Shown here: positions 479 to 16,350 of the stretch, piece after piece | Layout: every line of letters starts with the position of its first letter | Position numbering within the stretch: the first letter of the stretch is position 1 | IMG/VR virus record: IMGVR_UViG_3300048589_001041 | Location: 1 to 24,752 of that record | Strand: one strand, 5' to 3' | Origin: a virus | DNA length: 24,752 nucleotides | The notes under the pieces: model-generated | The model's input: the letters and a program-made list of their open reading frames with translations, nothing else | Databases searched by the model: none | What the model was told of the DNA's origin: nothing | Program-made: the position numbers and the translations under genes

Positions 479-1408
479 TTACGCCAGAGCGTTCTGAGCT
501 TTAGAAACTAGCACATTGCCAGGCAGGAAAGGCACGATCTCTTCGCCTGTGATTGCCCGGGTGTAGTGCAGCACCATCTCTGTGTTCTTCCAGCCTCCGG
601 CCTCTTTGACAGCCTGCAGGCTGGCGCCGTTGCGGATGGAGAGCGTGGCAAAGGTGCGGCGAAGATCGTGGGGCGAGAATGGTCCGATACCTGACAGCAG
701 GCCGATCTTGCGAAACATGTTGCGCATGCCAGCTTCGGTCATCCGTTGCTTGGTATTCATCACGGGAGTGAACACGTGCGGGCCGCGAGCTGGGCGCACT
801 TCGAGCCAGTTGGCCAGGACCTGCGCCGTGTGAGTAGAGAAGTGAGCTGTGCGCCAGCGCCCGAACTTGACAAGTCCTGTGGCGCTGTGATTTGCAAGAT
901 CGAGATTTGAAAGCGCAAGGTTACAGATCTCGGCGCAGCGAAAGCCCGTGTCCAGCATCAGCCAGATGATGGCCAGGTTGCGTTTTCCCAACGGCTGGTC
1001 AGTATCGCAGATCCCGAAACGGCGATAGCGGGTGCCAAATCCATCAGAGATGCCTGGCTGGAAGCTGCTGAGCAGCTGGCCGACCATATTTTCGTTCAGT
1101 GTGCGCTGCGGTGGTGAGACTTCGCGGCGTACGCGCCAGCGTGCGAGGCTATGCTCCTCGCCGAACTTCCAGCGCATGAACTGCAACAAGACACTGTTGA
1201 GCTTGCGAATAAGCGAGTTGCCCCATTTTGTGGACGCTGCGAATTCTTTGGCGTGGCGAATGGTCAGATCACCAAAGCTCTGGATGCCCTGCTGATCCAT
1301 CCATTTGCTCAGGAGCTTGATGAGGCGCCGATACATGGTGATCGTAGTCGGGCTCCAGGTCTTTTCGTCAAGGAAGCGCTCGAAGTCATCGAGTTCGCAG
1401 CTAAGCAT
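479..1408 (-). CDS. int: Tyrosine-type site-specific integrase
   Basis: This is a phage integrase of about 309 aa that would recombine attP with a chromosomal attB. An N-terminal SAM-like core-binding domain (about residues 1-90) precedes the catalytic domain. Visible catalytic residues are Arg157 (DTGFRCAE), His247 and Arg250 (SPHDLRRTFAT), Trp273 (GGWKNTEM) in the His/Trp position, and nucleophile Tyr282 (LHYTR). The active-site lysine is less clear; Lys181 is a candidate. I start at the ATG at 1408-1406 because GGAG lies 7 nt upstream and the ATG overlaps the TAG stop of the preceding gene. The in-frame ATG at 1435 has no ribosome site. It is the last gene of the leftward operon. Confidence 0.93.
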   Translation of the reverse strand: MLSCELDDFERFLDEKTWSPTTITMYRRLIKLLSKWMDQQGIQSFGDLTIRHAKEFAASTKWGNSLIRKLNSVLLQFMRWKFGEEHSLARWRVRREVSPPQRTLNENMVGQLLSSFQPGISDGFGTRYRRFGICDTDQPLGKRNLAIIWLMLDTGFRCAEICNLALSNLDLANHSATGLVKFGRWRTAHFSTHTAQVLANWLEVRPARGPHVFTPVMNTKQRMTEAGMRNMFRKIGLLSGIGPFSPHDLRRTFATLSIRNGASLQAVKEAGGWKNTEMVLHYTRAITGEEIVPFLPGNVLVSKAQNALA

Positions 1409-1625
1409 TGTCGGGCTCCAAAAGCAACAATGCATCTGTCAGCCAGTTGCTGGCGTCGGCCTCTACCTGTGGATCGATATTGCCCATGTGCGCTTGGTGA
1501 GCGTACAGGTTGAAATAGCTCTGAGCTTGTAGGATTTCTGTGAGGACCGGGTCTTTCCGAGCGCGCTTTCGAGCTGCTGCGTAAAGCTTCTCGCCCATCT
1601 CCTCGGCGAAACGTGGGGTCAGCAT
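1401..1625 (-). CDS. Small hypothetical protein translationally coupled to integrase
   Basis: This 74-aa soluble, helical, alanine- and charge-rich protein starts MLTPRFAEEMGEKL and ends LLLEPDNA. I recognise no family. A perfect AAGGAGG site lies about 10 nt upstream of the ATG, which makes it a convincing gene. Its TAG stop overlaps the preferred integrase start by 8 nt, so translation of the two is probably coupled. A role as an accessory factor for integration or excision is possible from position only. Confidence 0.75.
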   Translation of the reverse strand: MLTPRFAEEMGEKLYAAARKRARKDPVLTEILQAQSYFNLYAHQAHMGNIDPQVEADASNWLTDALLLLEPDNA

Positions 1626-3422: not shown

Positions 3423-3803
3423 ATGGCCTGGCTAGTGGATAACTGGCAGGTGCTCGTTGGGCTGGCAGGCTCCCTGTTGGGGACAGGGGGCCTGCTGGCT
3501 TTGTTGCGCTATCGCCACATCGAAGAGCCTCAGGCCGAGAGCGAACTGCGTGCCAAGGAAGCCGAAAACTATCAGCGCATGCTGGAAACCCAGGCAAAGC
3601 AAGGCACCCTCATAGGTGAGCTCAGCGCCAAGCTGGATGATGAGCGCGAGAAGCGCAGGGAGCTTGAGGATCGCCTTGACGAGTTAGAAAACAAGCTGGC
3701 AATCAAGGACCGCACCATCTCGATCTTTTCCCGGGGCGTAGCCAAACTGCACAAACAGATCCGTGACCTGGGCCACGAGCCGGTCTGGTCGTACGAGGGC
3801 TGA
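3423..3803 (+). CDS. Membrane-anchored coiled-coil protein (i-spanin-like topology)
   Basis: This 126-aa protein has an N-terminal membrane helix (about residues 8-28) followed by a long charged coiled coil (about residues 35-108, rich in Glu, Lys, Arg and Leu heptads). It starts 6 nt after the holin-like gene. One helix plus a coiled coil is the layout of inner-membrane spanins, and the pairing with a holin-like gene fits a lysis role. No outer-membrane lipoprotein partner is embedded or adjacent, so it may instead be a holin modulator. No ribosome site is strong. Confidence 0.5.
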   Translation: MAWLVDNWQVLVGLAGSLLGTGGLLALLRYRHIEEPQAESELRAKEAENYQRMLETQAKQGTLIGELSAKLDDEREKRRELEDRLDELENKLAIKDRTISIFSRGVAKLHKQIRDLGHEPVWSYEG

Positions 3804-3815
3804 TAGCTGCATGTT

Positions 3816-5570
3816 ATGGGCAATCCTGGCAAGCGAGAAAGCAACAAGGCTCTCCGCGCTTTTGAGGATTATTTCAACCTGGGGCCCGGCCGTAGCTTGG
3901 CAAAACTGGTGCGAATGTATGGCGAAGCTAAGGCGGGTGCGCCGACACGCCACAAGTCCACGCTCGAGAAGTGGTCCTCGGATTTCCGCTGGCAAGAGCG
4001 CGTGCGCGAGCGGGAAGCCGAGATTGCTGCCGCCCAGCTGGAGGCCATCAAACAAACAGCACCAATCACCGGCTACGCCGTCTACCAGAAGCGGATCGCT
4101 CACTTGAACGCCCTGGCCGAGAAGCTCTACGAGGGTATCTCCGATGAGGATAAGCTGTTTTTGCCCGATCCTCGCTGGGTGGGTGGCTTCACTGACGGGG
4201 TGCGCGTCGACCGCGTGAAATTCAACCAGCCGCTGGTGACGGCGTACCTGGATACGCTCGATGACATTGCTGAGGAGATGGGCGAGCGCGAAGGCGCGCC
4301 GGAACCGCCGGTGCCAACCTCTCCGATCGCTGCGGGGCTGCCAGCGCACCTATTGGCCCCTAGTTTCTTGGAGCCCTATCGTGATATCCGCGCCGCCAAG
4401 CATACCGAGTATGTGTTTATCGGTGGGCGTGGCTCTATCAAATCGAGCTCTGTAAGCCTTTTTGACTTGGATCTATTGCTCGCAAATCCAAACATGCACG
4501 TACTGGTCATGCGCCAGTATGCCAATACGATGCGAGACAGCGTATTCAGCCAGCTGCAGTGGGCTATCTCTGAGCTGGGCTTGGATGATCGGTTCCGCAG
4601 CATTCGCAGTCCGCTGGAAATGGAGTACCTGCCCACCGGTCAGAAGATCTACTTCCGTGGGGCTGATGAGCCTGGCAAGCTCAAGTCTATAAAACCGGCA
4701 TTCGGCTATATCGGCATCCTCCACCTCGAAGAGCTGGATCAGTTCAAGGGCGAGGATGCGGTGCGCAACATCGAGCAGTCAGCCATCCGCGGTGGTGACC
4801 TGGCATACAGGTTCAAGGTCTACAACTCGCCTAGGAGCGCTAACGCGTGGGTCAACAAATGGGTGCGAGTATCCGACCCTCGGCGCCTGGTGCACAAGAG
4901 CTCGTATCTCGACGCGCCGCATGAGTGGCTTGGGTCGGCCTTTATCGATATGGCCGAGCACCTCAAAGAGGTCAACCCCAAAGCCTACGAGCATGAGTAT
5001 TTGGGCGAGGTCAATGGCACCGGCGGCATGGTGTTTGAGAACGTGGTGGCCGACGAGCCCATCACAGATGAGCAGATCGCCCAGTTTGACCGCCCGCTGC
5101 AAGGCTTGGATTGGGGCTGGTTCCCGGATCCGCTGCACTTCGCCAAGATGCACTATGACGCGGCGCGCATGACCCTGTACATCTATGGTGAATATCGGGC
5201 CAACAAAACGAAGAACCGCCAAGCGTTTGATGATCTGATCTCCAAGGGCTTGCTATCCCTCGATCACCTCTTGATTGCAGATAGCGCCAGCCCTAAGGAT
5301 ATTGCCGACTTCCGCTCCTTTGGAGCAAATATCCGCGGCGCTGAGAAGGGGCCAGACAGTGTCACCTACAGCATCAAGTGGTTGCAGAGCTTGGCCAAGA
5401 TCGTGATTGACCCTGTGCGTTGCCCGCAAACAGCAGAAGAGTTCCTGAATTATGAGCTTGAGCGGGACAAAGAGGGCGATTTTATTTCAGCCTATCCAGA
5501 CAAGAACAACCACGCCATCGATGCTGTGCGCTATGCCACAAACCTAATCTGGCGTCGAGGTGGTGAGTGA
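3816..5570 (+). CDS. terL: Terminase large subunit with fused small-terminase-like N-terminus
   Basis: This 584-aa protein packages DNA into the prohead. Residues 10-80 (AFEDYFNLGPGRSLAKLVRM, LEKWSSDFRWQERVREREAE) look like the helix-turn-helix of phage small terminases. Residues about 190-410 are the ATPase: Walker A GGRGSIKS (203-210) and Walker B ILHLEELDQ (301-309). The C-terminal part is the RNase H-like nuclease with Asp432 (GLDWGW), Asp489 (LIADSASP) and Asp569 (NNHAIDAVRYA). It resembles the PBSX/Terminase_3 family. No separate small terminase gene is seen upstream, so the fusion probably supplies that role. The start is the ATG at 3816, with only a weak ribosome site. The stop overlaps the portal start (TGATG). 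Confidence 0.93.
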   Translation: MGNPGKRESNKALRAFEDYFNLGPGRSLAKLVRMYGEAKAGAPTRHKSTLEKWSSDFRWQERVREREAEIAAAQLEAIKQTAPITGYAVYQKRIAHLNALAEKLYEGISDEDKLFLPDPRWVGGFTDGVRVDRVKFNQPLVTAYLDTLDDIAEEMGEREGAPEPPVPTSPIAAGLPAHLLAPSFLEPYRDIRAAKHTEYVFIGGRGSIKSSSVSLFDLDLLLANPNMHVLVMRQYANTMRDSVFSQLQWAISELGLDDRFRSIRSPLEMEYLPTGQKIYFRGADEPGKLKSIKPAFGYIGILHLEELDQFKGEDAVRNIEQSAIRGGDLAYRFKVYNSPRSANAWVNKWVRVSDPRRLVHKSSYLDAPHEWLGSAFIDMAEHLKEVNPKAYEHEYLGEVNGTGGMVFENVVADEPITDEQIAQFDRPLQGLDWGWFPDPLHFAKMHYDAARMTLYIYGEYRANKTKNRQAFDDLISKGLLSLDHLLIADSASPKDIADFRSFGANIRGAEKGPDSVTYSIKWLQSLAKIVIDPVRCPQTAEEFLNYELERDKEGDFISAYPDKNNHAIDAVRYATNLIWRRGGE

Positions 5571-7018
5571 TGTTTGAGCGCATATTGGGCTGGGCTAAAG
5601 GAGTGTGGAACAAGATGATCGGTAAATCAGATATCAAGCGCTTGCTTGGGGTTGAGGTTGACATCTCCTCGGCGATGATGACGGCGCTGGCTGAATGGGC
5701 CAAGATGTACGAGAACCGCGCCGAGTGGCTCAGCAAAACGGTGCGCTCCCTCAACCTGCCGGCAGCCGTGGCCGGCGCGTTTGCTACCTCTGTAACCCTT
5801 GAGATGGAGGTCGAGGTAACTGGTGCATCGGGCGCCGGCGGAGCTGCTCGTGCTGAGTTTTTGCACGAGCAGCTCCAGCGTATCCTCCCCAGCCTCCGCG
5901 AGCAGGTCGAGTATGGCGTGGCCAAAGGTGGCCTCATCATGAAGCCGTGGGTGGATGGGGACCAGCTGGCGGTTGACTTTTCCCAGGCTGACCAATTCAT
6001 CCCGGTGGCCTTCGACAGCCGCAAGCGGCCCTCGAAGTGCATCTTCGTCTACAAGCTTCGGCAAGGGGATTATTACTACACCCGCCTCGAGTTCCATGAG
6101 TTCCTCGGCTACGTCCAGGACGGCGCCCAGGCCGAAGGCTCGTACCGCATCCGCAACAAGGTTCTGCGCAGCACCTCAGATGCAGATCTCGGCTCCGTGG
6201 TTCCCCTGTCTTCGGTGCCCGAGTGGGCCGATCTCAGCGAGGAGGAGAGCTACCTGGGCGTCCGGCAGCCGCTGTTCGGCTACTTCCGCTTCCCGCAGGC
6301 CAACAACATCGAGCCTGGCTCGCCGCTTGGCGTTAGTGCCTACGCCCGCGCCGTGGACCTCATCAAGCAGGCCGACATCCTGTGGTCTCAGCTGCTCTGG
6401 GAGTTTGAGAGCGGCCAACGAAGAATGATGGTTGATGAGGGTGCCTTAGAGAAAGGCAAGGATGGCAAAGTAATCCTGCCGGACTTCAACCTCTACCGGA
6501 CGCTGCGAGGCGTCAGCGATGTGGGCAAGGGCAAACTATTTGAGGAGTGGTCGCCTGGCTTCCGTGAACAGAACCTGATCAATGGCCTCGAGGCAATCCT
6601 CAAGCGCATTGAGTTCAACTGTGGAATGGCCAGGGGCATGCTGAGCGATCCTCAGCAGGTCGACAAGACGGCCACCGAAGTGCTATCCAGCAAGCAGCAG
6701 TACGCCGCCACCGTGGTCGATATCCAAAAGGCTCTCGAGACGGCCATCCGTGACCTGCTGTATGCGATGGATGCGTGGACGAGCATCTTCAAATTGGCCC
6801 CTAAAGGCGCCTACGAAGCCACTTTCACCTTTGATGACAGTCTGGTCACCGATCGCCAGCAGCAGTTCGCCCAGGACACCCAGATGGTGACCATGCGGGC
6901 AATGGGGCCGGTGGAGTTACGTATGCGCACCTACGGCGAGAGTGAGGAAGTGGCAAAGCAAAAAGTAGCCGAGGCGCAAGCTAGCCAGACAACCGAGCTA
7001 TTCCCAGAGGAGGAGTAA
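5570..7018 (+). CDS. Phage portal protein (A118/SPP1 gp6-like)
   Basis: This 482-aa portal would form the dodecameric ring at the capsid vertex through which DNA passes. It follows the large terminase, which is where a portal gene normally lies. Recognisable traits are the N-terminal KMYENRAEWLSKT segment, the central VEYGVAKGGLIMKPW, the FRFPQANNIEPGSPLGVSAY loop region and the C-terminal QVDKTATEVLSSKQQ helix typical of A118-type portals. I prefer ATG 5570 over the preceding GTG 5567; GAGGTGG lies upstream. Start and terminase stop share one base. The stop overlaps the next start (TAATG). Confidence 0.9.
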   Translation: MFERILGWAKGVWNKMIGKSDIKRLLGVEVDISSAMMTALAEWAKMYENRAEWLSKTVRSLNLPAAVAGAFATSVTLEMEVEVTGASGAGGAARAEFLHEQLQRILPSLREQVEYGVAKGGLIMKPWVDGDQLAVDFSQADQFIPVAFDSRKRPSKCIFVYKLRQGDYYYTRLEFHEFLGYVQDGAQAEGSYRIRNKVLRSTSDADLGSVVPLSSVPEWADLSEEESYLGVRQPLFGYFRFPQANNIEPGSPLGVSAYARAVDLIKQADILWSQLLWEFESGQRRMMVDEGALEKGKDGKVILPDFNLYRTLRGVSDVGKGKLFEEWSPGFREQNLINGLEAILKRIEFNCGMARGMLSDPQQVDKTATEVLSSKQQYAATVVDIQKALETAIRDLLYAMDAWTSIFKLAPKGAYEATFTFDDSLVTDRQQQFAQDTQMVTMRAMGPVELRMRTYGESEEVAKQKVAEAQASQTTELFPEEE

Positions 7019-7170
7019 TGGAAAAGCTTTTTGTGTTCAAGAAAATATCGGTCTTCTTGGGGGATGTGGCTGCGGCCCTGTTGATGCTCATTGCCACTGT
7101 ATGGCTGATCTATGCGCTGGTGTGGTCTGCACTGAAGCTGGCCGCATTGATGGTGGGTGCCTGGTCATGA
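7018..7170 (+). CDS. 50-aa single-helix membrane protein
   Basis: A short protein, MEKLFVFKKISVFLGD and on, with a long hydrophobic stretch at about residues 11-46. A strong GAGGAGG sits within the end of the portal gene, and the ATG overlaps the portal TAA. Its stop overlaps the next ATG as ATGA. Being coupled on both sides and next to another membrane protein, it may act with that partner. No family recognised. Confidence 0.75.
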   Translation: MEKLFVFKKISVFLGDVAAALLMLIATVWLIYALVWSALKLAALMVGAWS

Positions 7171-8003
7171 AATTCACTGAATTCATCCCCATTCACGAAG
7201 ACACCTACCCGCGCCCGGTGCGCAAAAGCCTGGCGCTCGGCTGGGGCTTCTGGGTGGCGGTAGCCGTGGCCGCGGGTGCCATTGTCTTGGCGGCCATGCG
7301 CACGGCCCACAGCTTCTACACCGCGGCCGTCCTCTCCGCCCAGGTATACGGTATGGAGAGTGCGATCGCAACGCAGGTGATGGGCCTAGCCGAGGCCGTG
7401 GCGGCGATGCTGGCCATCGAGGGCGGACTGGTCTACGCCGCGGTGAAGCGCGCCCAGCAAGAGGGCAAGGTGAAGCCCCGCTTGATCGCAACCAATATCG
7501 CTCTCCTGGTAGCCATCTCCGTGGTGGCCGGCCTGGGCCAGTCGCTCGGTCTGGTGATCGGCTTGCCGGCTGAGTGGCTCGAAGGCTTTAGTTGGCTGAT
7601 GGCGCTCATCCTGGGCCCCGGGGCCTCGATCGTGGCATGGCTATCCGGCGAAATGCTTGGCGTTGAACTGCTGAAATTTGAGTTTGCCCGTGCCGCAACT
7701 GAGAAGGCACACCAGGCTGCTATGACCAAATGGACCAACGAAGCCCGGGCGGCTTGGCAGCAGGCGAGGCAGGAGCAGCGCGAGCGTGCCAGTCAGCCTG
7801 AGCCTGTAAACGAGCCCACGCCGCCGGCGAGCAAATTTGATCAGGACAAACAGCGCGTTTTTGAGTACGTCACGCAATTCTCACTCAATCGGCGGCGCAT
7901 ACCCACCACCGGTGAGATCAGTGCGGCGCTTGGCCTGCCCGGCAAGTATGTTGCCCAGATCTTCGAGGTGCTGAAACGTGAGCACCGGGTGCAGCAGGCG
8001 TGA
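7167..8003 (+). CDS. Four-helix membrane protein with C-terminal winged-helix domain
   Basis: Start chosen at the ATG overlapping the upstream TGA (ATGA), giving 278 aa. Membrane helices are at about residues 24-44, 71-93, 107-133 and 141-160. A helical, Gln/Arg/Glu-rich linker (171-212) and a proline-rich hinge lead to a winged helix at 228-278 (FEYVTQFSLNRRRIPTTGEI, SAALGLPGKYVAQIFEVLK) resembling MarR/LexA-type wHTH. TM-plus-wHTH proteins are known from actinobacterial plasmid transfer (DUF2637/Spd-like), but I see no sequence match. In a phage head operon it is unexpected: it could tether DNA, or sense the membrane and control transcription. Function unknown. Confidence 0.75.
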   Translation: MKFTEFIPIHEDTYPRPVRKSLALGWGFWVAVAVAAGAIVLAAMRTAHSFYTAAVLSAQVYGMESAIATQVMGLAEAVAAMLAIEGGLVYAAVKRAQQEGKVKPRLIATNIALLVAISVVAGLGQSLGLVIGLPAEWLEGFSWLMALILGPGASIVAWLSGEMLGVELLKFEFARAATEKAHQAAMTKWTNEARAAWQQARQEQRERASQPEPVNEPTPPASKFDQDKQRVFEYVTQFSLNRRRIPTTGEISAALGLPGKYVAQIFEVLKREHRVQQA

Positions 8004-8962
8004 AGCCCGCGTTCTTTTTCAAGCCTCACCAGCACAAAGGCAAAGCGTATCTGGAGGCTTTGCTGGCTGCTGGGTATTGCAAAACCCGCAACTTGGAGAA
8101 GGCTCAGTTCGTATTTTTGGATTTTCTCTACGCCGGGCTGTTTTCGGGGCTACATGGCAATGGCATGCTGCGCAAGGAGGCTACCCATGCTGTAGAGCAC
8201 GGCAAGCCGGTCTTCTTGTACCCGCACTTCTGCTCGCCCTGGCTGCCGCACGACCTTGAGGTAGAGCCGCTGGCCGCCGCTGCCTTCTTTTGCCACTCAG
8301 CCGGCTATGCCAAGGTGCTCGAGATGATCGGTTATCCAACGCCAACGGAGGTGGTCGGATGGTCGTACAGCGAGGTGCGGCCGTTTGCGCCGTTCGTCGG
8401 CCGTAAGCCGCAGGTGCTGTTTGCGCCCCTGCATCCGGTGGGTGGCACGCTGCCCCAGGTGGAGCGTGAGATCAATGAGCATGTGTTTCGCACGCTGGTG
8501 GCCCTTCGCACAGCCGGGGTGCTGGCCAAGCTCACCGTTCGTTTTTACGGCAGCCTTGCAACCAACGGCCTGCACAGGCATAGCGACGTGAATTACCAGG
8601 AGGCCCTGCTCACCGGGCGCACCGATGACATGGAGCGAGCCGACGTGGTGGTCTCAGCCGGCACTTATGCCCACATGGCGGTAGCGCTGGGCAAGCCAAC
8701 GGTGATGATGGGCCAGGATATCCGTCCGCACAACACTCCCCGCGGCGGTGGCCAGATGGCCTGGGTGCGCAACTGGGAGCTGTATCGTGATTTTGCCCGC
8801 TTCCCGCATTCGATCGAGATGAGTACAGGCAGCAGCGTTGCTGCAGAAACGATCAAGCGCGCCTGTGAGGGCACCGCTTCTGTCGAAGACTGGAAGGCCA
8901 ACCATATTGGCCATCAATTCAACCCGCAGCACTTTATCTCACGCTTGGAGGCGTACCTATGA
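8000..8962 (+). CDS. GT-B fold glycosyltransferase-like protein
   Basis: A 320-aa protein with a GTG start overlapping the upstream stop (GTGA). The N-terminal half has a Rossmann-like start (MKPAFFFKPHQHKGKAYLEA), and the C-terminal half holds ADVVVSAGTYAHMAVALGK (214-232) followed by PTVMMGQD. That is the classic donor-site signature of GT-B enzymes such as CDP-glycerol and N-acetylglucosamine transferases, where a residue is tested for loss before renaming as a nucleotide-sugar site. The substrate cannot be told. It is followed by a methyltransferase and a GT-A enzyme, so the three probably build or decorate one glycan. Confidence 0.7.
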   Translation: MKPAFFFKPHQHKGKAYLEALLAAGYCKTRNLEKAQFVFLDFLYAGLFSGLHGNGMLRKEATHAVEHGKPVFLYPHFCSPWLPHDLEVEPLAAAAFFCHSAGYAKVLEMIGYPTPTEVVGWSYSEVRPFAPFVGRKPQVLFAPLHPVGGTLPQVEREINEHVFRTLVALRTAGVLAKLTVRFYGSLATNGLHRHSDVNYQEALLTGRTDDMERADVVVSAGTYAHMAVALGKPTVMMGQDIRPHNTPRGGGQMAWVRNWELYRDFARFPHSIEMSTGSSVAAETIKRACEGTASVEDWKANHIGHQFNPQHFISRLEAYL

Positions 8963-9534
8963 GTAATCAACAAGCCGGACTCTTCACCCCTCCGCATGCA
9001 CAGCTCATTGACGATACCTTCGGTCGCCATATCGGCGTAAAGGAGACGGACGCCCGGCGGTTGGCCTGGTTGGCTAGCCAAGTGCCTGAGAACGGCATCA
9101 TTGTTGAGGTTGGCAGCTTCTGGGGGCGCAGTGCTGGCTATATGGCCTCAGCCATGCATCGAAGCGTTCAACTCTTCTGCGTAGACAAGTGGCCCAACCT
9201 GGTAGACCTGGAAAAATTCAAACGCAACATATCCAGCCTCGCACTCGGGCATTTCAACGTACAGACCATGCGAGGCGAGAGCGTGGAAATGTCCAAGAAA
9301 TGGAGTGGTCGACCCATCGACCTGCTGTACATTGACGCTACGCATACGTACGCGATGGTGCAGGCGGATTATCTTGCTTGGGCACCGTTCGTGAGGCCGG
9401 GCGGGCTGATAGCGTTCCATGACTACGGGGCACGCACCTGGCCCGCGGTGAAGCGCTTCGTAGACGAAGTGGCAAGTTTGGAGTTTCAGCAGTTGGGCAT
9501 TCATCAGCATGTATGGAGTGGGGTGAAGCGATGA
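8959..9534 (+). CDS. Class I SAM-dependent methyltransferase (Methyltransf_24-like)
   Basis: This 191-aa enzyme has motif I at residues 48-59 (IVEVGSFWGRSA), an acidic residue at the end of strand 2 (FCVDKWP), DLLYIDATHTY at 121-131 with Asp126, and GGLIAFHDY at 148-156. These are typical of Methyltransf_24 and of cephalosporin-hydroxylase-like methyltransferases that act on sugars. The start overlaps the preceding TGA (ATGA). Flanking glycosyltransferases on both sides suggest it methylates a sugar. DNA methylation is unlikely because no DPPY-type motif is present. Confidence 0.8.
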   Translation: MSNQQAGLFTPPHAQLIDDTFGRHIGVKETDARRLAWLASQVPENGIIVEVGSFWGRSAGYMASAMHRSVQLFCVDKWPNLVDLEKFKRNISSLALGHFNVQTMRGESVEMSKKWSGRPIDLLYIDATHTYAMVQADYLAWAPFVRPGGLIAFHDYGARTWPAVKRFVDEVASLEFQQLGIHQHVWSGVKR

Positions 9535-10250
9535 AGCTGTCCGTCATTTTCCCCTACACCAAGGCTTATGGCGATTTCGCAACACCATACACCGAAAGCA
9601 TTCACAAGCACGAGCCTGCTGTTCAGGTGGTGGGAGTGAACACCGAGGGTGAGCCAGATTATCGCTACACCCAGGCGCTCAACCAGGGCGCCAGGCAGGC
9701 AGCCGGTGACTGGCTCATGTTCACCAATGACGACATCCTTTGCCAGGGTGAATTTGTAGAGTTGGTGAGCGGCCTCGATCCCAACAATATCTATGGCATG
9801 GAACTGCGCCACAAGACCAAAGAGGAGTGGGGTGCAGATGTTGAGTACCTCTATGGTTGGATCCTGCTAATGCACCGCTCCATCTACGAGGCCGTTGGCC
9901 CCTTCGAGGAGCAGTATCTGCACGCCGGCTTCGATGATATCGATTACTGCTGGCGCGCTCAGCAGGCTGGCTTCGGTCTCGAGGTCATCGATCTGCCGTT
10001 CATCCACCTTGCTGACCAGCCCGGCGGCAAGCATCGCCGCTACACGGTGCCTGGCTACCGCGAGCAGATGGCCCGCAGTAAGCGTTTCTTCTTGGCCAAA
10101 GTGAACCTCGCTGCCCGAGGTTATACCAAAGATCAAAGCTCGGCCCTGCTTATGGCTATAGTCCCGTACATCGACAATCATGTCTTGTTTGAGCAAAGCC
10201 TGTATGACCAAGTACAAGGCGCGAAACCGCTAGAACTCTCTAGCCAGTAA
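9531..10250 (+). CDS. Family 2 (GT-A) glycosyltransferase
   Basis: Start at the ATG overlapping the methyltransferase stop (ATGA), 239 aa. It begins MKLSVIFPYTK, has the metal/nucleotide-sugar motif NDD at 66-68 (WLMFTNDDILCQG), and YGWILLMHRSIYEAVGPF followed by FDDIDYCWR (134-142), the acceptor/catalytic region of rhamnosyltransferase-like GT2 enzymes. It is cytoplasmic with no membrane helix. It closes the cassette between portal and minor capsid genes. Targets could be a virion protein or the host envelope. Confidence 0.88.
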   Translation: MKLSVIFPYTKAYGDFATPYTESIHKHEPAVQVVGVNTEGEPDYRYTQALNQGARQAAGDWLMFTNDDILCQGEFVELVSGLDPNNIYGMELRHKTKEEWGADVEYLYGWILLMHRSIYEAVGPFEEQYLHAGFDDIDYCWRAQQAGFGLEVIDLPFIHLADQPGGKHRRYTVPGYREQMARSKRFFLAKVNLAARGYTKDQSSALLMAIVPYIDNHVLFEQSLYDQVQGAKPLELSSQ

Positions 10251-10255
10251 ACGAG

Positions 10256-11356
10256 ATGTTGACGCCTGGCCAGTTCGACGTTTCTGCAGATGCGATCCTC
10301 AAGCTCTATCACGAGTTTGAGGATGTTGTGCTGCAGGATATTGCCCGCCGGCTGGCTGGGCTCAACTTTGCCTCGGCCGCCTGGCAGGTGCAGCGGCTTA
10401 ACGAAACCGGAGCGCTGTACGAGGACATTCTGCGCGAGCTGGCCAGGCTGACCGGACAATCCGAGCGCCAGGTGGCCGAGATCCTGCGCCAAGCCGGGGT
10501 GCAGGCGGTGCGATTCGACGACCGCATTTACAGGGCGGCCGGGCTGGACCCGCTGCCGCTCAATCTCTCGCCGCAGATGGCCTCGGTGCTCTCCATCGCC
10601 ATCCAGCGCACCAATGGCAGCATGCGCAACCTCACGCAGACCACCGTGCTGACGGCTCAGCAAGCCTTTGTGCAGGCGGCCGACATGGCTTTCCTGCAGG
10701 TGAGCAGCGGGGCCATGAGCTACGACCAGGCTATCCGGGCGGCCGTGGGCAACGTGGGTGCCAGCGGGCTGGAAGTGATGTATCCATCTGGCCGCCGAGA
10801 CAAGCTCGACGTAGCCATGCGGCGCACCGTGCTGACTGGGGTGGGGCAGGCGGCTGGCCAGTTGCAGTGGGCACGGGCTGATGAGATGGGCGCCGATCTG
10901 GTGCAGACCTCGGCGCACATTGGTGCCCGGCCGTCTCACCAGCTTTGGCAGGGGCGCATTTTCTCTCGATCGGGCACGCATCCGCTATACCCGCCCTTTG
11001 TGGCCGAGACTGGCTGGGGCACGGTGACCGGGCTGGGCGGTGCCAACTGTAGGCACTCGTACTTTCCGTTTTTTGAAGGGTTGTCCGAGAACGCCTACGA
11101 TGAGGCAATGCGGGAGCACCTGGCTAACGAGAGTGTGGACTACCGCGGCCGCCAGCTGACGGCCTACGAGGCTACCCAGGTGCAGCGCGGCCTCGAGCGC
11201 AAGATCCGCGAGTGGAAGCGCCGGGCACTGACGCTGGAAGCCGCCGGGCTGGATACAGCCCGTGAGAGTGCCAAGGTGCGCCTTTGGCAGGCGCGGATGC
11301 GAGATTTCGTTGGACAGACCGGGCTTCGCCGGCAGCGCGTTCGGGAGCAGATATGA
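10256..11356 (+). CDS. Phage minor capsid protein (Phage_min_cap2-like)
   Basis: A 366-aa head morphogenesis protein. The diagnostic part is the C-terminal half: QTSAHIGARPSHQLWQGRIF followed by GWGTVTGLGGANCRHSYFPF, the conserved His/Cys segments of the A118-type minor capsid and Mu gpF-like families. The N-terminal 200 residues are helical. In related phages this gene directly follows the portal; here 3.2 kb of cassette separates them. The ribosome site is weak and the start lies only 5 nt after the GT2 stop. Confidence 0.88.
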   Translation: MLTPGQFDVSADAILKLYHEFEDVVLQDIARRLAGLNFASAAWQVQRLNETGALYEDILRELARLTGQSERQVAEILRQAGVQAVRFDDRIYRAAGLDPLPLNLSPQMASVLSIAIQRTNGSMRNLTQTTVLTAQQAFVQAADMAFLQVSSGAMSYDQAIRAAVGNVGASGLEVMYPSGRRDKLDVAMRRTVLTGVGQAAGQLQWARADEMGADLVQTSAHIGARPSHQLWQGRIFSRSGTHPLYPPFVAETGWGTVTGLGGANCRHSYFPFFEGLSENAYDEAMREHLANESVDYRGRQLTAYEATQVQRGLERKIREWKRRALTLEAAGLDTARESAKVRLWQARMRDFVGQTGLRRQRVREQI

Positions 11357-11514
11357 GCGACCGCATGCTTGCTGAGATCATCTGCCGGGCATTGCTGGCT
11401 ATTGTGGCGGGGATTCGCAAGAAGTACAACCTGCCAGACATCAAGAATGTGACGGTCGTGCTGCAAACTGAGGTGGCATCACCGGATAAATACAAACAAA
11501 AAGAGAGCGGCTAA
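11353..11514 (+). CDS. 53-aa hypothetical protein
   Basis: The ATG overlaps the minor capsid TGA (ATGA), with GGGAG 6 nt upstream. The product, MSDRMLAEIICRALLAIVAG and on, has an amphipathic or hydrophobic N-terminal helix and a KNVTVVLQTEVAS strand. No family recognised. The last codons lie inside the following terminator stem. Confidence 0.65.
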   Translation: MSDRMLAEIICRALLAIVAGIRKKYNLPDIKNVTVVLQTEVASPDKYKQKESG

Positions 11515-11532
11515 AAACGCTGCTCTTTTTTT
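11500..11532 (+). terminator. Intrinsic terminator after the minor capsid genes
   Basis: AAAGAG pairs with CTCTTT and AGCG with CGCT, with one bulged G, an 8-nt loop and a seven-T tract (11526-11532). The stem overlaps the end of the 53-aa gene. It isolates the packaging/cassette operon from the lipoprotein island. Confidence 0.8.
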
Positions 11533-11652
11533 GGTATCATCAAAGCTCGTAAGCGCGGGCCGGTTTGGGATGTTGACCCGGCCAGCGTAGAGGCATACAA
11601 AAAAGCGCCCAAGGCTAAAAGGTGGGCGACCAAGAAAGAGGGATATCAAAAA
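11533..11652 (+). pseudogene. Remnant of an HTH_17-type DNA-binding protein gene
   Basis: In frame just after the terminator the sequence reads GIIKARKRGPVWDVDPASVE followed by AYKKAPKAKRWATKKEGYQK, running into the lipoprotein ATG without a stop. It reads like the second half (recognition helix end, wing and tail) of a small HTH_17/excisionase protein; compare the wing of the early regulator near 2460. The first half is replaced by the terminator and there is no start codon. It is probably a decayed regulator carried with the lipoprotein. It could also be chance coding. Confidence 0.4.
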
Positions 11653-12285
11653 ATGAAGAACAAACATGTTGGGAAACTTAGCATTCTAGTATTGGTTTTG
11701 GTATTTGCATCTTTAGCCTGCGGGGGAGGGTCAGAGGTGCAAGTAAATGCCCCTGTAAGCCAAGAAGATGCGGTAAATACTCAGGTAGCCGTCATCCTCG
11801 CCCAAGGCGGAGACGGTGACTCGAGTACTGCCGCTACCGTAACAGAGCAGCCTGCTCTGGGTACAGCCCGAAGCAACCCTGCACCTGCCGGGTCAGAGAT
11901 CATTGCTGATGGAATGGCATTTACGCTTACAGGGAGCGTCCGCCCTGCCACACAGACAGTGATGAGCGCAAACCAGTTCAACTCAGCACCCGAGGCTGAT
12001 GAAGAATATGTTTTGGTGTCTGTCAGCATTGCGTGTCAAAAGACAGTAGATGAAAAATGCTCCATCTTCTCTTCAAGCTTCAAGATGTTGGGGAGTAGTG
12101 GCATTACAAGCGAGCCCGAGATATTCGTGGCTGGTGTGCCAGGTCTATTAGACTTCAATACCGAGTTCTACGGCGGTGCATCGATTTCAGGGGCAATCCC
12201 ATTCATTGTCAGCACTGCAGACACCGGGCTACTGCTTGTTTATGAACCCTTCTTGGGTGACAGTTTCTATCTTGCAATAGAATAA
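11653..12285 (+). CDS. Exported lipoprotein, DUF4352-like
   Basis: A 210-aa protein with a signal peptide (MKNKHVGKLSILVLVLVF) ending in ASLAC, with Cys23 as the lipid site, then a flexible Ser/Thr/Ala/Pro-rich linker to about residue 80. A single beta-rich domain follows (MAFTLTGSVRPA, DEEYVLVSVSIACQK, and the end LLLVYEPFLGDSFYLAIE). This pattern is that of DUF4352/telokin-like lipoproteins common in Gram-positive and Chloroflexota genomes. Terminators lie on both sides, and the base composition is less GC-rich than in the neighbouring head genes. It is not a virion-type protein and reads as a lysogenic-conversion or exclusion gene. Confidence 0.8.
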   Translation: MKNKHVGKLSILVLVLVFASLACGGGSEVQVNAPVSQEDAVNTQVAVILAQGGDGDSSTAATVTEQPALGTARSNPAPAGSEIIADGMAFTLTGSVRPATQTVMSANQFNSAPEADEEYVLVSVSIACQKTVDEKCSIFSSSFKMLGSSGITSEPEIFVAGVPGLLDFNTEFYGGASISGAIPFIVSTADTGLLLVYEPFLGDSFYLAIE

Positions 12286-12322
12286 GGCTGATAAAGAGAT
12301 CAAGAAGGGCTTCCCTTTCTGG

Positions 12323-12358: not shown

Positions 12359-12451
12359 GGAAGCAAAAAACTAAATAGAAGTACAGCCCCGCTGAACCTC
12401 AGCCGCGCTTGTGACATGTCGAGAGACGTGCCGCAAGCGCGGCTTTTTTTT
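12359..12451 (+). ncRNA. Candidate small RNA or attenuator leader
   Basis: From the predicted start of transcription to the T tract is only about 93 nt. It has a short unstructured A-rich 5' part (GCAAAAAACTAAATAGAAG) and then an elaborate terminator hairpin. No ORF with a ribosome site fits inside. It is either a small stable RNA or a leader whose terminator must be overridden to express scaffold and capsid. Predicted only; no known RNA family recognised. Confidence 0.45.
12401..12451 (+). terminator. Intrinsic terminator before the scaffold gene
   Basis: AGCCGCGCTTG (12401-12411) pairs with CAAGCGCGGCT (12434-12444). Above a 3x3 internal loop, CATGTC pairs with GACGTG (one G-U) and is capped by a GAGA (GNRA) tetraloop. 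Eight T follow. It is very stable and would stop transcription from upstream. Confidence 0.85.
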
Positions 12452-12563: not shown

Positions 12564-13169
12564 ATGAAGAAGTCAGATCTTGAAAAGCTGGGCTTGACCG
12601 AAGAGGCCATCAAGAAAGCTGGCCTGCCGGACAACCTGCAGGAAGAGCTGCTGAAGTTGAACGGCCAGGCAGTCGAGGCCCAGAAGGCCAAGACGGTGGC
12701 GGCCGAAGAGAAGGCAACTGCCTTGCAGACGCGGCTCGACGAAGCCGGCGAGACCATCAAGAACTTTGAAGGCCTGAAGCCGGATGAGCTGAAAAAGTCG
12801 GTCGAGGAATGGAAGGCAAAAGCCAGTGAGGCCCAGGAAGCCGCGAAGAAGGTGGCCGCCGAGGCTGAATCCAAACTGAAGGCTCAGGCCTTTGACCATG
12901 CGCTGGATGGCGCCCTGACCGCTGCCAAGGTCAAGAACACCAAGGCAGCCAAGGCGCTGCTCAAGCTCGATCTGTTGAAGCTGAACGATGAGGACGGCTC
13001 GATTGCCGGCCTGAGCGAGCAGCTGGAGAAGATCAAAGAGACTGACGACTACCTGTTCTCCAACGACGACCCCTCCCCGCGCCAGGTGGCGAAGGGGGGC
13101 ACTCAAAAAAAGGTGACTGAACAACCTGGCACCTTTGCCGAGGCTATCGGCGAGGTGCTGAACCAATAG
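12564..13169 (+). CDS. Capsid scaffolding protein (phage GP20 family-like)
   Basis: A 201-aa, highly charged, almost wholly helical protein with a long coiled coil from about residue 25 to 110 and a C-terminal basic/acidic tail (GTFAEAIGEVLNQ). The N-terminus KKSDLEKLGLTEEAIKKAGL and AFDHALDGALTAAKVKNTKA are typical of Phage_GP20 scaffolds, which direct HK97-fold capsid assembly and then leave. It directly precedes the major capsid gene. AGGAG lies about 13 nt before the ATG, with a second AGGA closer. A GGAGC/GCTCC hairpin lies just upstream. Confidence 0.85.
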   Translation: MKKSDLEKLGLTEEAIKKAGLPDNLQEELLKLNGQAVEAQKAKTVAAEEKATALQTRLDEAGETIKNFEGLKPDELKKSVEEWKAKASEAQEAAKKVAAEAESKLKAQAFDHALDGALTAAKVKNTKAAKALLKLDLLKLNDEDGSIAGLSEQLEKIKETDDYLFSNDDPSPRQVAKGGTQKKVTEQPGTFAEAIGEVLNQ

Positions 13170-13193
13170 CGCACCACTAATACGGAGATTGAC

Positions 13194-14156
13194 ATGCCTA
13201 TTACCCTAGCAAATGCAAAGCAACTTTCTCAGGAGAAGCTGACTGGCTTCGTCATTGACGAATTCCGCAAGTCCGCACTCCTGGATACGTTGATCTTTGA
13301 CAATACTGTGAAGCCGCAGGGCGGCCAGAGCATGACCTACAGCTACAACCGGGTCAGCACCCAGCCGACCGCGGCCGGCCGCGCCATCAACAGCGAGTTC
13401 ACGCCTCAAGAAACCATCACCCAGCGCTACAACGTTGACCTGAAGGTCTTCGGTGGCAGCTTCGAGCTGGACCGCGTGCTCATCAAGCATGAGCGCCAGG
13501 TGGTGAATCACGTCCAGTTCCAGATCGAGCAGAAGGTCAAGGCCACCATTGCCTTGTTCCACGACTGGTTCATCAACGGCGACGCAGGTGACAACCCGCT
13601 CATGTTTGACGGCTTGGACAAGGCCGTGAGCGGCACCTCCACTGAGCTGGATCCCGGGACCGACATCGATTTGTCCTCCTCGGCCGCCATCGACACCAAC
13701 TGGAAGGTGTTCCTGGATCATCTGCGCCGCTTGCGCGCCCGCATGGATGGGGCTCCCTCGCTGTATGCGATGAGTGGCGATATGTTCGGTGTCTTCCAGT
13801 CCGTGATGGACCGTGCGGGCATCAACCTGCTGAGCAAGGAAACCTACGGTCATGAAGTGGCTGTGTGGGGCCCCTCGCTGGTGATGAGCCTGGGCGACAA
13901 ACCTGGCACCTCTGACCCAATCATCGAAACGGACGCGGGCGTCACCAGCATCTATGCGGCCCGTATCGGCTTGGATGGCGTGCATGGTGTTTCCCCTGAG
14001 GGCGACGACCTGGTTACGCAATATTTGCCGGACCTGAAGGCCCCTGGCGCTGTGAAGTTGGGCGAGGTGGAGATGGTGGCTGCAACTGCCGTCAAGGCCA
14101 CCCGCTCGGCTGGTGTTCTGCGCGGCATCAAGATCTCTGAGAGCGAGAGCGCCTAA
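13194..14156 (+). CDS. Major capsid protein (HK97-fold expected)
   Basis: A 320-aa protein directly after the scaffold with a GGAG site 7 nt before the ATG. It starts with a coat-type N-terminus (ANAKQLSQEKLTGFVIDEFR), a GGQSMTYSYNRV E-loop-like region, a long spine-like helix near residues 95-130 (VNHVQFQIEQKVKATIALFH) and a P-domain with MDGAPSLYAMSGDMFGVFQS. Length and order match A118-like capsids. The exact family is uncertain but the role is clear from position. Confidence 0.88.
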   Translation: MPITLANAKQLSQEKLTGFVIDEFRKSALLDTLIFDNTVKPQGGQSMTYSYNRVSTQPTAAGRAINSEFTPQETITQRYNVDLKVFGGSFELDRVLIKHERQVVNHVQFQIEQKVKATIALFHDWFINGDAGDNPLMFDGLDKAVSGTSTELDPGTDIDLSSSAAIDTNWKVFLDHLRRLRARMDGAPSLYAMSGDMFGVFQSVMDRAGINLLSKETYGHEVAVWGPSLVMSLGDKPGTSDPIIETDAGVTSIYAARIGLDGVHGVSPEGDDLVTQYLPDLKAPGAVKLGEVEMVAATAVKATRSAGVLRGIKISESESA

Positions 14157-15002: not shown

Positions 15003-15397
15003 GCGGGCCGGTCATTCAGACGCCGCGGGGCGCCGTCTTCCACACGCCAAACGGGTCTGCACGCCTGATCTGGAACCCCGGCTTCAAGCCGGTTTGGCAA
15101 GGGCGCTACACCGGTGCGCAGCACTTCGTGGATAGCGAAGTCCTGCGAGGAACTGAGCCCTTCACGCCTTTGCTCACGGGCACGCTGATCAAGACGGGCC
15201 AGCTGGGCACTGAAGTGGGTAGCGGCCTGGTGCAGTGGATTGCCCTGTATGCACGCCGCCAGTACTACGCCAAGCGCAAGACGGGCAGCCAAACTGGCCC
15301 ATTACGCGGGCCCTACTGGTTCGACCGCTGGAAGGCGGCAGATGGCGGGGCCACCGTGCGCAAAGCCCGGCGCCTGGCCGGCGGTGGTGTGCGATGA
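14999..15397 (+). CDS. Minor capsid protein 2-like (head-tail joining)
   Basis: A 132-aa protein with HFVDSEVLRGTEPFTPLLTG, then TLIKTGQLGTEVGSGLVQWI and YARRQYYAKRKTG before GPYWFDRWKA, a pattern of the Minor_capsid_2 family. These proteins link head and tail in A118-like phages. ATGA overlaps at both ends place it in a tightly coupled block of four connector genes. Confidence 0.8.
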   Translation: MSGPVIQTPRGAVFHTPNGSARLIWNPGFKPVWQGRYTGAQHFVDSEVLRGTEPFTPLLTGTLIKTGQLGTEVGSGLVQWIALYARRQYYAKRKTGSQTGPLRGPYWFDRWKAADGGATVRKARRLAGGGVR

Positions 15398-15840
15398 CCA
15401 TCATCGAAGCACTGCAGACGTGGATCGGCAGCTTTGATCTGCTTGCGGCCGAGGCCCCGTTGTTTGTGGATCACGTAGATGCCGGCACGCTGACGCAGTA
15501 TGCCATCGTCCCGCTGCCTGGCCCGCCCATTGTGGAACGCTATCTGGATGGCAGTAGCACGCGCCAGTATGCGTTTGCAATCCAGTTTGCGGCACCCACC
15601 GCGGACGACCAGGCGCGCCTGGCCAATAGCGGGTTCATGGAGTTTCTCAGCGATGAGTTTGAGCGCCGCACGGCGGATGGCGATCTGCCTGATCTTGGCG
15701 ATCGCCGCATGGCAGAAGCCGTTGAAGCCGTGAATTCGGGCTTCCTGGCCCAGCAGGGCGAGAGCGACAGTGCAATTTACCAAATCAGTTGCCGGCTGGA
15801 GTACTTCCAACCGGCGATGACGAGCGACGAATCTGAGTAA
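15394..15840 (+). CDS. Minor capsid protein 3-like / tail terminator
   Basis: Start at the ATG overlapping the previous TGA, 148 aa, begins MTIIEALQTWIGSFDLLAAE. FVDHVDAGTLTQYAIVPLPG and the end AIYQISCRLEYFQPAM are typical of the Minor_capsid_3/tail-terminator group, which caps the tail tube. It lies just before the tail tube gene. An upstream in-frame ATG at 15235 would overlap the previous gene heavily and is not the start. Confidence 0.78.
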   Translation: MTIIEALQTWIGSFDLLAAEAPLFVDHVDAGTLTQYAIVPLPGPPIVERYLDGSSTRQYAFAIQFAAPTADDQARLANSGFMEFLSDEFERRTADGDLPDLGDRRMAEAVEAVNSGFLAQQGESDSAIYQISCRLEYFQPAMTSDESE

Positions 15841-15852
15841 GGAGAAATAGCT

Positions 15853-16350
15853 ATGGCAAAAGTACGCCGAGATCAATTCCGCACTTTCATCGACACGACC
15901 CCCAAAGCGGGGTCTGCCACCTTCGCGCTGTTGGGCAAGGGGATTTCCGATTCTGCGGTGAACGCCAATCCGCAGACGGAGACTGAGCACTACATCAGCG
16001 ACAAAGAGGCCACCACGGACACCAACAGCTACCAGCGTGCACTGCCGTTTGATGCTCGCCTGATCATGAGCGATGAGGCCCTGGCCTACCTCGAAGGCCT
16101 ATGGCGCGACGGCCCGCCGGTGCTGGATGATGCGGTGACCGAAATCGTGAACGTGTACACATATCACGAAAAGGTGGAAGGCAAGTACCCGGCCACCAAG
16201 CACGAGGTTTCGATTGCCTATGACAACTTTGGTGGTACCGGTGGTGATGGGGTGCGGATCAGCGGGAACCTCAATTACCGCGGCGACCAGGTCAATGGCT
16301 GGTTTGACCCCGTGGAGCTGGAGTTCACCGCGACCGAAGAGAGCGCATAA
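15853..16350 (+). CDS. Major tail tube protein
   Basis: A 165-aa beta-rich protein with a strong AAGGAG site. It starts MAKVRRDQFRTFIDTTP and has DSAVNANPQTETEHYISDKE, then ATTDTNSYQRALPFDARL, features of Firmicutes-type siphophage tube proteins. It stands between the connectors and the chaperone gene. A perfect hairpin follows and could separate its high expression from the downstream genes. Confidence 0.82.
   Translation: MAKVRRDQFRTFIDTTPKAGSATFALLGKGISDSAVNANPQTETEHYISDKEATTDTNSYQRALPFDARLIMSDEALAYLEGLWRDGPPVLDDAVTEIVNVYTYHEKVEGKYPATKHEVSIAYDNFGGTGGDGVRISGNLNYRGDQVNGWFDPVELEFTATEESA

Follow-up and report, generated by a model that had tools for sequence, protein, structure and literature searches.

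The window, by which we mean the whole 24.75-kb stretch of DNA analysed here, is an IMG/VR virus record whose genes include an integrase and an SPP1-like set for packaging and head formation (terminase, portal, minor capsid, scaffold, major capsid protein (MCP), adaptor and tail). Between the genes for the portal (5567-7018) and the minor capsid protein (10256-11356) lie five open reading frames (ORFs), found at the positions where the original prediction had placed them. They comprise two genes for membrane proteins, here called memA and memB, followed by a trio of enzyme genes for a GT-B-fold glycosyltransferase (GT-B), an O-methyltransferase (MT) and a GT2-like glycosyltransferase (GT-A):

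479-1435, minus strand: integrase
5567-7018, plus strand: portal protein, SPP1 gp6-like (phrog_533, 3.5e-121), the neighbour upstream of the insert
7016-7020: portal/memA junction, TAATG
7018-7170, plus strand: memA, 50 aa, a single transmembrane segment (TM)
7167: memA/memB junction, ATGA
7167-8003, plus strand: memB, 278 aa, about four TM and a C-terminal LexA-like winged helix
8000: memB/GT-B junction, GTGA
8000-8962, plus strand: predicted GT-B-fold glycosyltransferase, 320 aa, first gene of the trio, without a Pfam or PHROG family
8959: GT-B/MT junction, ATGA
8959-9534, plus strand: SAM-dependent O-methyltransferase, Methyltransf_24, 191 aa, second gene of the trio
9531: MT/GT-A junction, ATGA
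9531-10250, plus strand: GT2-like (GT-A) glycosyltransferase, 239 aa, third gene of the trio
10256-11356, plus strand: minor capsid protein (Phage_min_cap2, 1.2e-103), the neighbour downstream of the insert
13194-14156, plus strand: MCP, phrog_212 type

The genes had been described as coupled at every junction. This holds for the five junctions from the portal to GT-A, all of them overlaps or TAATG, but not for GT-A and the minor capsid gene, which are separated by a gap of 5 nt. For GT-A, a start at 9531 is preferable to the listed one at 9513. No sigma-70-like promoter was found across window positions 3600-12300, and the sole convincing terminator-like match lies downstream of the cassette, at 12427-12443.

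The closest relatives of the window are prophages in chromosomes of Anaerolineales (Chloroflexota), namely L002 in the MAG ACE_CHL7 and L006 in genome G402, with portal proteins 85% and 93% identical to that of the window, respectively. With its SPP1-type head genes, its integrase and its chromosomally integrated relatives, the window has the features of an SPP1-like temperate siphovirus of Anaerolineales. Both prophages have kept all five genes in the same order and in the same position between portal and minor capsid, and the trio of L006 is 94-98% identical to that of the window. Between the window and L002, dN/dS was 0.16 for memA, 0.10 for memB, 0.15 for GT-B, 0.25 for MT and 0.12 for GT-A, compared with 0.05-0.08 for the head genes. 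Because the nucleotide divergence is mostly synonymous (dN/dS 0.10-0.25), we conclude that all five ORFs are working genes under purifying selection. In L002 only, an extra 27-aa ORF with a hydrophobic helix is found between memA and memB (11604-11687).

Is an insertion between portal and minor capsid unusual in such phages? The two genes are normally adjacent, as had been supposed: the gap does not exceed 400 nt in 37 of 44 relatives, and in 23 of these it is 10 nt or less. It exceeds 1 kb in seven of the 44, and four of these seven lie outside the lineage of the window and have other cargo. Since the slot is usually closed and otherwise holds varied cargo, the arrangement in the window is one use of a recurrent insertion site. 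In L077 (370-3510) and L037 (2456-4090), the slot holds three to five small proteins in tandem, which have a common N-terminal motif like HPRDPKGKSTGGQFVS or NPYHVKSGEFGGQFTTG and differ in the rest, one of them with a weak RadC/JAB match; the motif resembles a tag by which cargo proteins might be packaged or delivered. In relatives that lack the trio, a different slot, between MCP and adaptor, is often occupied by a putative surface protein of the beta-helix or a similar type (weak family matches).

The predicted gene composition was borne out, with the limitation that the name GT-B has no family match behind it and rests on a predicted fold. Neither Pfam nor PHROGs nor PDB sequences yielded a usable match for the protein. 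An AlphaFold model built from eight relatives (pLDDT 81) shows two Rossmann-like domains, and its top Foldseek matches are exclusively GT-B enzymes (3.6e-6), including SdgB and the enzymes of serine-rich adhesins (7vfk, 4w6q, 3rhz). The TM-scores are modest (about 0.4, with low-confidence loops), so that the predicted resemblance is one of fold and implies no particular acceptor. In an alignment of 10 relatives, 56 columns are invariant. The 'glycerophosphate transferase' of Thermobifida phage P1312, which adjoins an O-methyltransferase, was considered as a homologue and has no meaningful similarity to GT-B.

MT matches PF13578 (Methyltransf_24) at 1.7e-21 and, weakly, RMNT_CmcI, a rhamnosyl O-methyltransferase family (0.003); its structure matches are O-methyltransferases (best 8.8e-10). 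The DNA methyltransferase label of phrog_2675, which has Methyltransf_24 members, was disregarded, being probably an artefact that MT fusions caused in the annotation. GT-A matches PF13641 (3.6e-4) and PF00535 (9.7e-4), both under the Pfam cut-off, and conserves the motifs NDD and GFDDIDYCWR (GFDDxDYxWR). None of the three enzymes contains a transmembrane segment. MT is only 53% identical between the window and L002 (13482-14036), where its neighbours GT-B and GT-A reach 77% and 84%, and it is identical to the last base between the window and L006. This pattern suggests an exchange of MT alleles, perhaps with an altered sugar specificity.

The two membrane proteins gave no family match. For memB, no relatives were found in viral contigs, and weak matches in two genomes turned out to be merely LexA-type winged helices; its structure prediction reached a pLDDT of 53. 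By architecture, memB (7167-8003) is a membrane-anchored protein of a DNA-binding type, and we found no relatives of it beyond the lineage of the window. Both genes are confined to this lineage and lie outside the mobile trio, i.e. they are a separate, lineage-specific insertion, and their role is not accounted for by virion glycosylation, the function that we propose below for the trio.

Thus, the five genes do not form the single cassette that had been envisaged; the true unit is GT-B/MT/GT-A, which in relatives is found at another place, behind the capsid gene, and is not accompanied by the membrane genes. In prophage L012 (portal 49% identical), the three genes overlap in the same order between MCP and head-tail adaptor without memA and memB, and profile searches placed the trio in this slot also in the viral contigs L030, L032, L034, L035, L109 and L019, which makes seven non-redundant relatives (one prophage and six viral contigs) with the trio and without memA and memB. 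The independent scattering in relatives that the original prediction had named as speaking against a cassette was therefore seen for memA and memB but not for the trio.

Variants of the block were also observed. In the MCP-adaptor slot of L046 the order is GT-B, GT-A, nucleotidyltransferase, MT, and a nucleotidyltransferase (PF12804, 1.5e-10) lies within the block in L022/L035, L023/L109 and L034 as well as L046, as one would expect of a cassette that produces its activated sugar itself. Pairs occur as GT-B/MT immediately before the terminase genes in L024 and as MT/GT-B in the portal-minor capsid slot in L054, and L019 has the MCP and the trio, its terminase and portal being unrelated. When the presence of the trio is mapped onto the tree of one MCP family, three changes are needed, to which the second MCP family contributes at least one more. 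About four independent lineages thus have the trio as a single travelling unit in their head operon. In L017 (10131-10736), a GIY-YIG homing endonuclease lies directly after GT-A, where other phages have the nucleotidyltransferase; it may aid the spread of the cassette.

The relatives were found only with profiles that included the prophage copies; single-protein searches of viral contigs for close relatives returned nothing. Outside this prophage lineage, neither 395 other genomes of the class nor 399 of the phylum contained GT-B, and hence no host locus of origin was found. A tie of the trio to one capsid type was rejected, since the window and L006 share the trio and differ in capsid family.

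What would be the substrate of these enzymes? Three virion proteins encoded downstream end in acidic, Ser-rich C-terminal tails, which we propose as glycan acceptors:

14136-14153, plus strand: C-terminal tail of the MCP (gene 13194-14156), ...SESESA, proposed acceptor
15820-15837, plus strand: C-terminal tail of the tail terminator (gene about 15394-15840), ...TSDESE, proposed acceptor
16333-16347, plus strand: C-terminal tail of the major tail protein (MTP; gene 15853-16350), ...TEESA, proposed acceptor

Among the relatives, the presence of the trio goes with acidic and Ser-containing C-terminal extensions on MCP, tail terminator and MTP. In the MCP1 family, 10 residues follow VLR in the two members with the trio, compared with 4-7 in the 15 without it. 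The tails of MCP2 average 6.7 aa with and 3.7 aa without the trio (p=5e-6), and those of MTP 6.1 and 3.3 aa (p=3e-5), both after dereplication at 90% and with relatedness ignored. The tail terminators of trio phages end in ...EEESSS, ...EEIGS, ...EPESS or ...EELGSS, those of the others mostly in ...LTYxQxP. The last six residues are enriched in D/E/S/T in trio phages for MCP2 (p 3e-4), tail terminator (2e-4) and MTP (1e-5), again ignoring relatedness, and for MCP1 (p=0.018, n=2). In the control proteins, the same residues were not enriched for the minor capsid protein, scaffold, adaptor and two connector proteins, and weakly so for portal (p=0.016) and tape measure (p=0.013, n=2). None of these p-values is corrected for descent, and the phylogenetically independent gains of the trio number about four.

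The window and L006 are instructive in this respect, as their near-identical trios stand beside non-homologous MCPs (phrog_212 and phrog_422 types) that both end in ESA. Here the capsid gene was swapped (window 13101-14143; L006 10827-11723), the flanks being 94-98% identical and the ESA end retained. A partial exception is L046, which has the enzymes and no tail on MCP or terminator, only an MTP ending in ...TETVVS; L017/L032 combines the trio with weak tails.

Based on this correlation and on the gene content, we consider it likely that the trio glycosylates and methyl-caps the C-terminal tails of MCP, tail terminator and MTP during late expression. Of the earlier reading, this retains late genes of the head operon that most probably serve to glycosylate the virion; it gives up the five-gene unit, tempers the claim that no such system had been described and disfavours the envelope as an alternative target. 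The trio would be expressed together with the head genes late in infection; one of the two glycosyltransferases would attach a sugar to a serine in the acidic, Ser-rich tails, the second would extend it, and the Methyltransf_24 enzyme would cap the glycan with an O-methyl group. In some relatives the nucleotidyltransferase in the block may supply the activated donor. The modification could shield the particle, or tune its surface and adsorption. In this scheme, we infer the reaction order, the priming glycosyltransferase, the sugar identity, the chemistry and the purpose. More speculatively, and with a confidence that falls somewhat short of an even chance, the enzymes may form a portable 'tag and paint' system, which needs only a short Ser/acidic tag at the C-terminus, so that any tagged virion protein would be glycosylated and the cassette could move with or without a capsid gene; the priming enzyme would then be GT-B, as a new family of protein O-glycosyltransferases.

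Other targets have to be weighed against this proposal. Phages do carry glycosyltransferase cassettes that act on the host envelope (PMC12619734), and in the lineage of the window two membrane genes adjoin the trio and are translationally coupled to it, so that enzymes and membrane proteins together might alter a surface glycan in late infection or lysogeny, masking receptors or excluding superinfection in the manner of gtr cassettes. We regard this as unlikely, because seven non-redundant relatives have the trio without memA and memB, the enzymes show neither transmembrane segments nor a GtrA/GtrB-type family match, the trio always lies in the head operon and never in a lysogenic or moron position, and its presence correlates with altered C-termini of virion proteins. 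The last-minute change of the cell envelope offered by the original prediction is accordingly disfavoured: the trio is free of TM and gtr-type genes, and the C-terminal tags occur mainly where it is present. That the glycosyltransferases and MT hypermodify DNA bases or another non-protein target seems highly improbable to us; phage glycosyltransferases can glycosylate DNA (PMC12619734) and a DNA methyltransferase label is attached to one PHROG that has Methyltransf_24 members, but no base-hydroxymethylating or base-modification gene was recognised among the annotated ORFs of the window, MT is related to O-methyltransferases, and the correlation with protein tails would be left unexplained.

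The tails could also serve some other role. Virion proteins might be modified at other sites, e.g. surface loops, with the tails being an independent structural feature of these lineages, as L046 with its enzymes and its tail-less MCP and terminator would suggest, and relatedness inflates the association between trio and tails. Against this, the same ESA end was acquired by two unrelated MCP families, tail terminator and MTP change in step while the other head proteins are largely unchanged, and the precedent in phage Che8 is C-terminal; we therefore hold modification at other sites to be improbable.

To our knowledge, it is mainly in mycobacterial phages that phage enzymes have been demonstrated to glycosylate the virion, and Freeman et al. 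2023 reportedly dealt with this for Che8, Corndog and Myrna. In mycobacteriophages, Che8 among them, the subunits of capsid and tail tube are glycosylated at their C-termini (PMC12619734), Che8 gp110 and Corndog gp38 are essential glycosyltransferases (PMC12363180), cluster O phages have an O-methyltransferase and three glycosyltransferases (PMC11600133), and for such clusters of glycosyltransferase and O-methyltransferase genes, glycosylation of the capsid and the tail tube was shown (PMC11600133, PMC12363180, PMC12619734). The statement that no system of this composition had been described was therefore too strong, also in view of Che8 gp108, a fusion of GT2 and Methyltransf_24. As in the mycobacteriophages, the window has phage-encoded glycosyltransferases and an O-methyltransferase in one cluster; the MT family is the one found in gp108, gp109 is a distant match to GT-A (prob 84, single template), and the C-terminal residues of the Che8 MCP and MTP are TGS and DGS, a GS end that is shared by several of the phages analysed here. 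Apart from gp110, the enzymes are thus related (GT2, Methyltransf_24). However, gp110 belongs to GT25, of which the trio has no homologue, with the family-less GT-B instead; the Che8 glycosyltransferase genes, at 56-58.7 kb, are well away from its head operon, and the trio is inside that of the window; and the window differs further in its host phylum (Chloroflexota), in a third tagged protein (the tail terminator) and in the nucleotidyltransferase of some relatives. Direct homology to gp110 or gp108 was rejected, as gp110 did not match the GT-A profile and GT-B did not match gp108. From the shared MT family, the distant gp109 match and the GS ends, we suggest that the trio functions in the manner of the mycobacteriophage system, with some of the enzymes exchanged for others and at a different location in the genome.

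More distant resemblances were found in three other systems. In the Omegavirus LittleE, a Mycobacterium phage, the slot between MCP and head-tail connector, which the trio occupies in seven non-redundant relatives, holds four glycosyltransferase genes and a kinase, but the block as a whole is not homologous, all its glycosyltransferases are GT2-type, MT is fused to one of them and a GT-B is absent. SdgB, Gtf3 and GtfC, protein glycosyltransferases of Ser-Asp and Ser-rich adhesins, have the GT-B fold in common with the window enzyme and act on Ser-rich, acidic segments, to which SESESA may be compared; at about 10% identity, a TM-score of about 0.4 and an unrelated secretion and adhesin context, this is a resemblance of fold only. 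The gtr serotype-conversion cassettes likewise place a phage-borne glycosyltransferase beside membrane genes, as in the lineage of the window, but the window lacks a flippase or membrane-bound GT2 (memA and memB have no family, and GT-A has no TM where GtrA flippase and membrane-anchored GtrB would be expected), and the trio occurs without membrane genes.

If our proposal is correct, phage virion glycosylation would be extended to a further phylum, where another set of enzymes is used, and would be seen to arise recurrently in the same slots of the operon; a short tag would also be at hand as a candidate acceptor. Should this tag be sufficient, it would explain how one enzyme set acts on unrelated virion proteins, and it would offer a simple tool for adding sugars to protein C-termini in bacteria. 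As environmental phages meet no antibodies, the question of the natural purpose of capsid glycans is raised.

Within the head operon, the window also has a lipoprotein-like gene at 11653-12285 (signal peptide with Cys, DUF4352-like), which is 98% conserved in L006 and is a possible candidate for superinfection exclusion.
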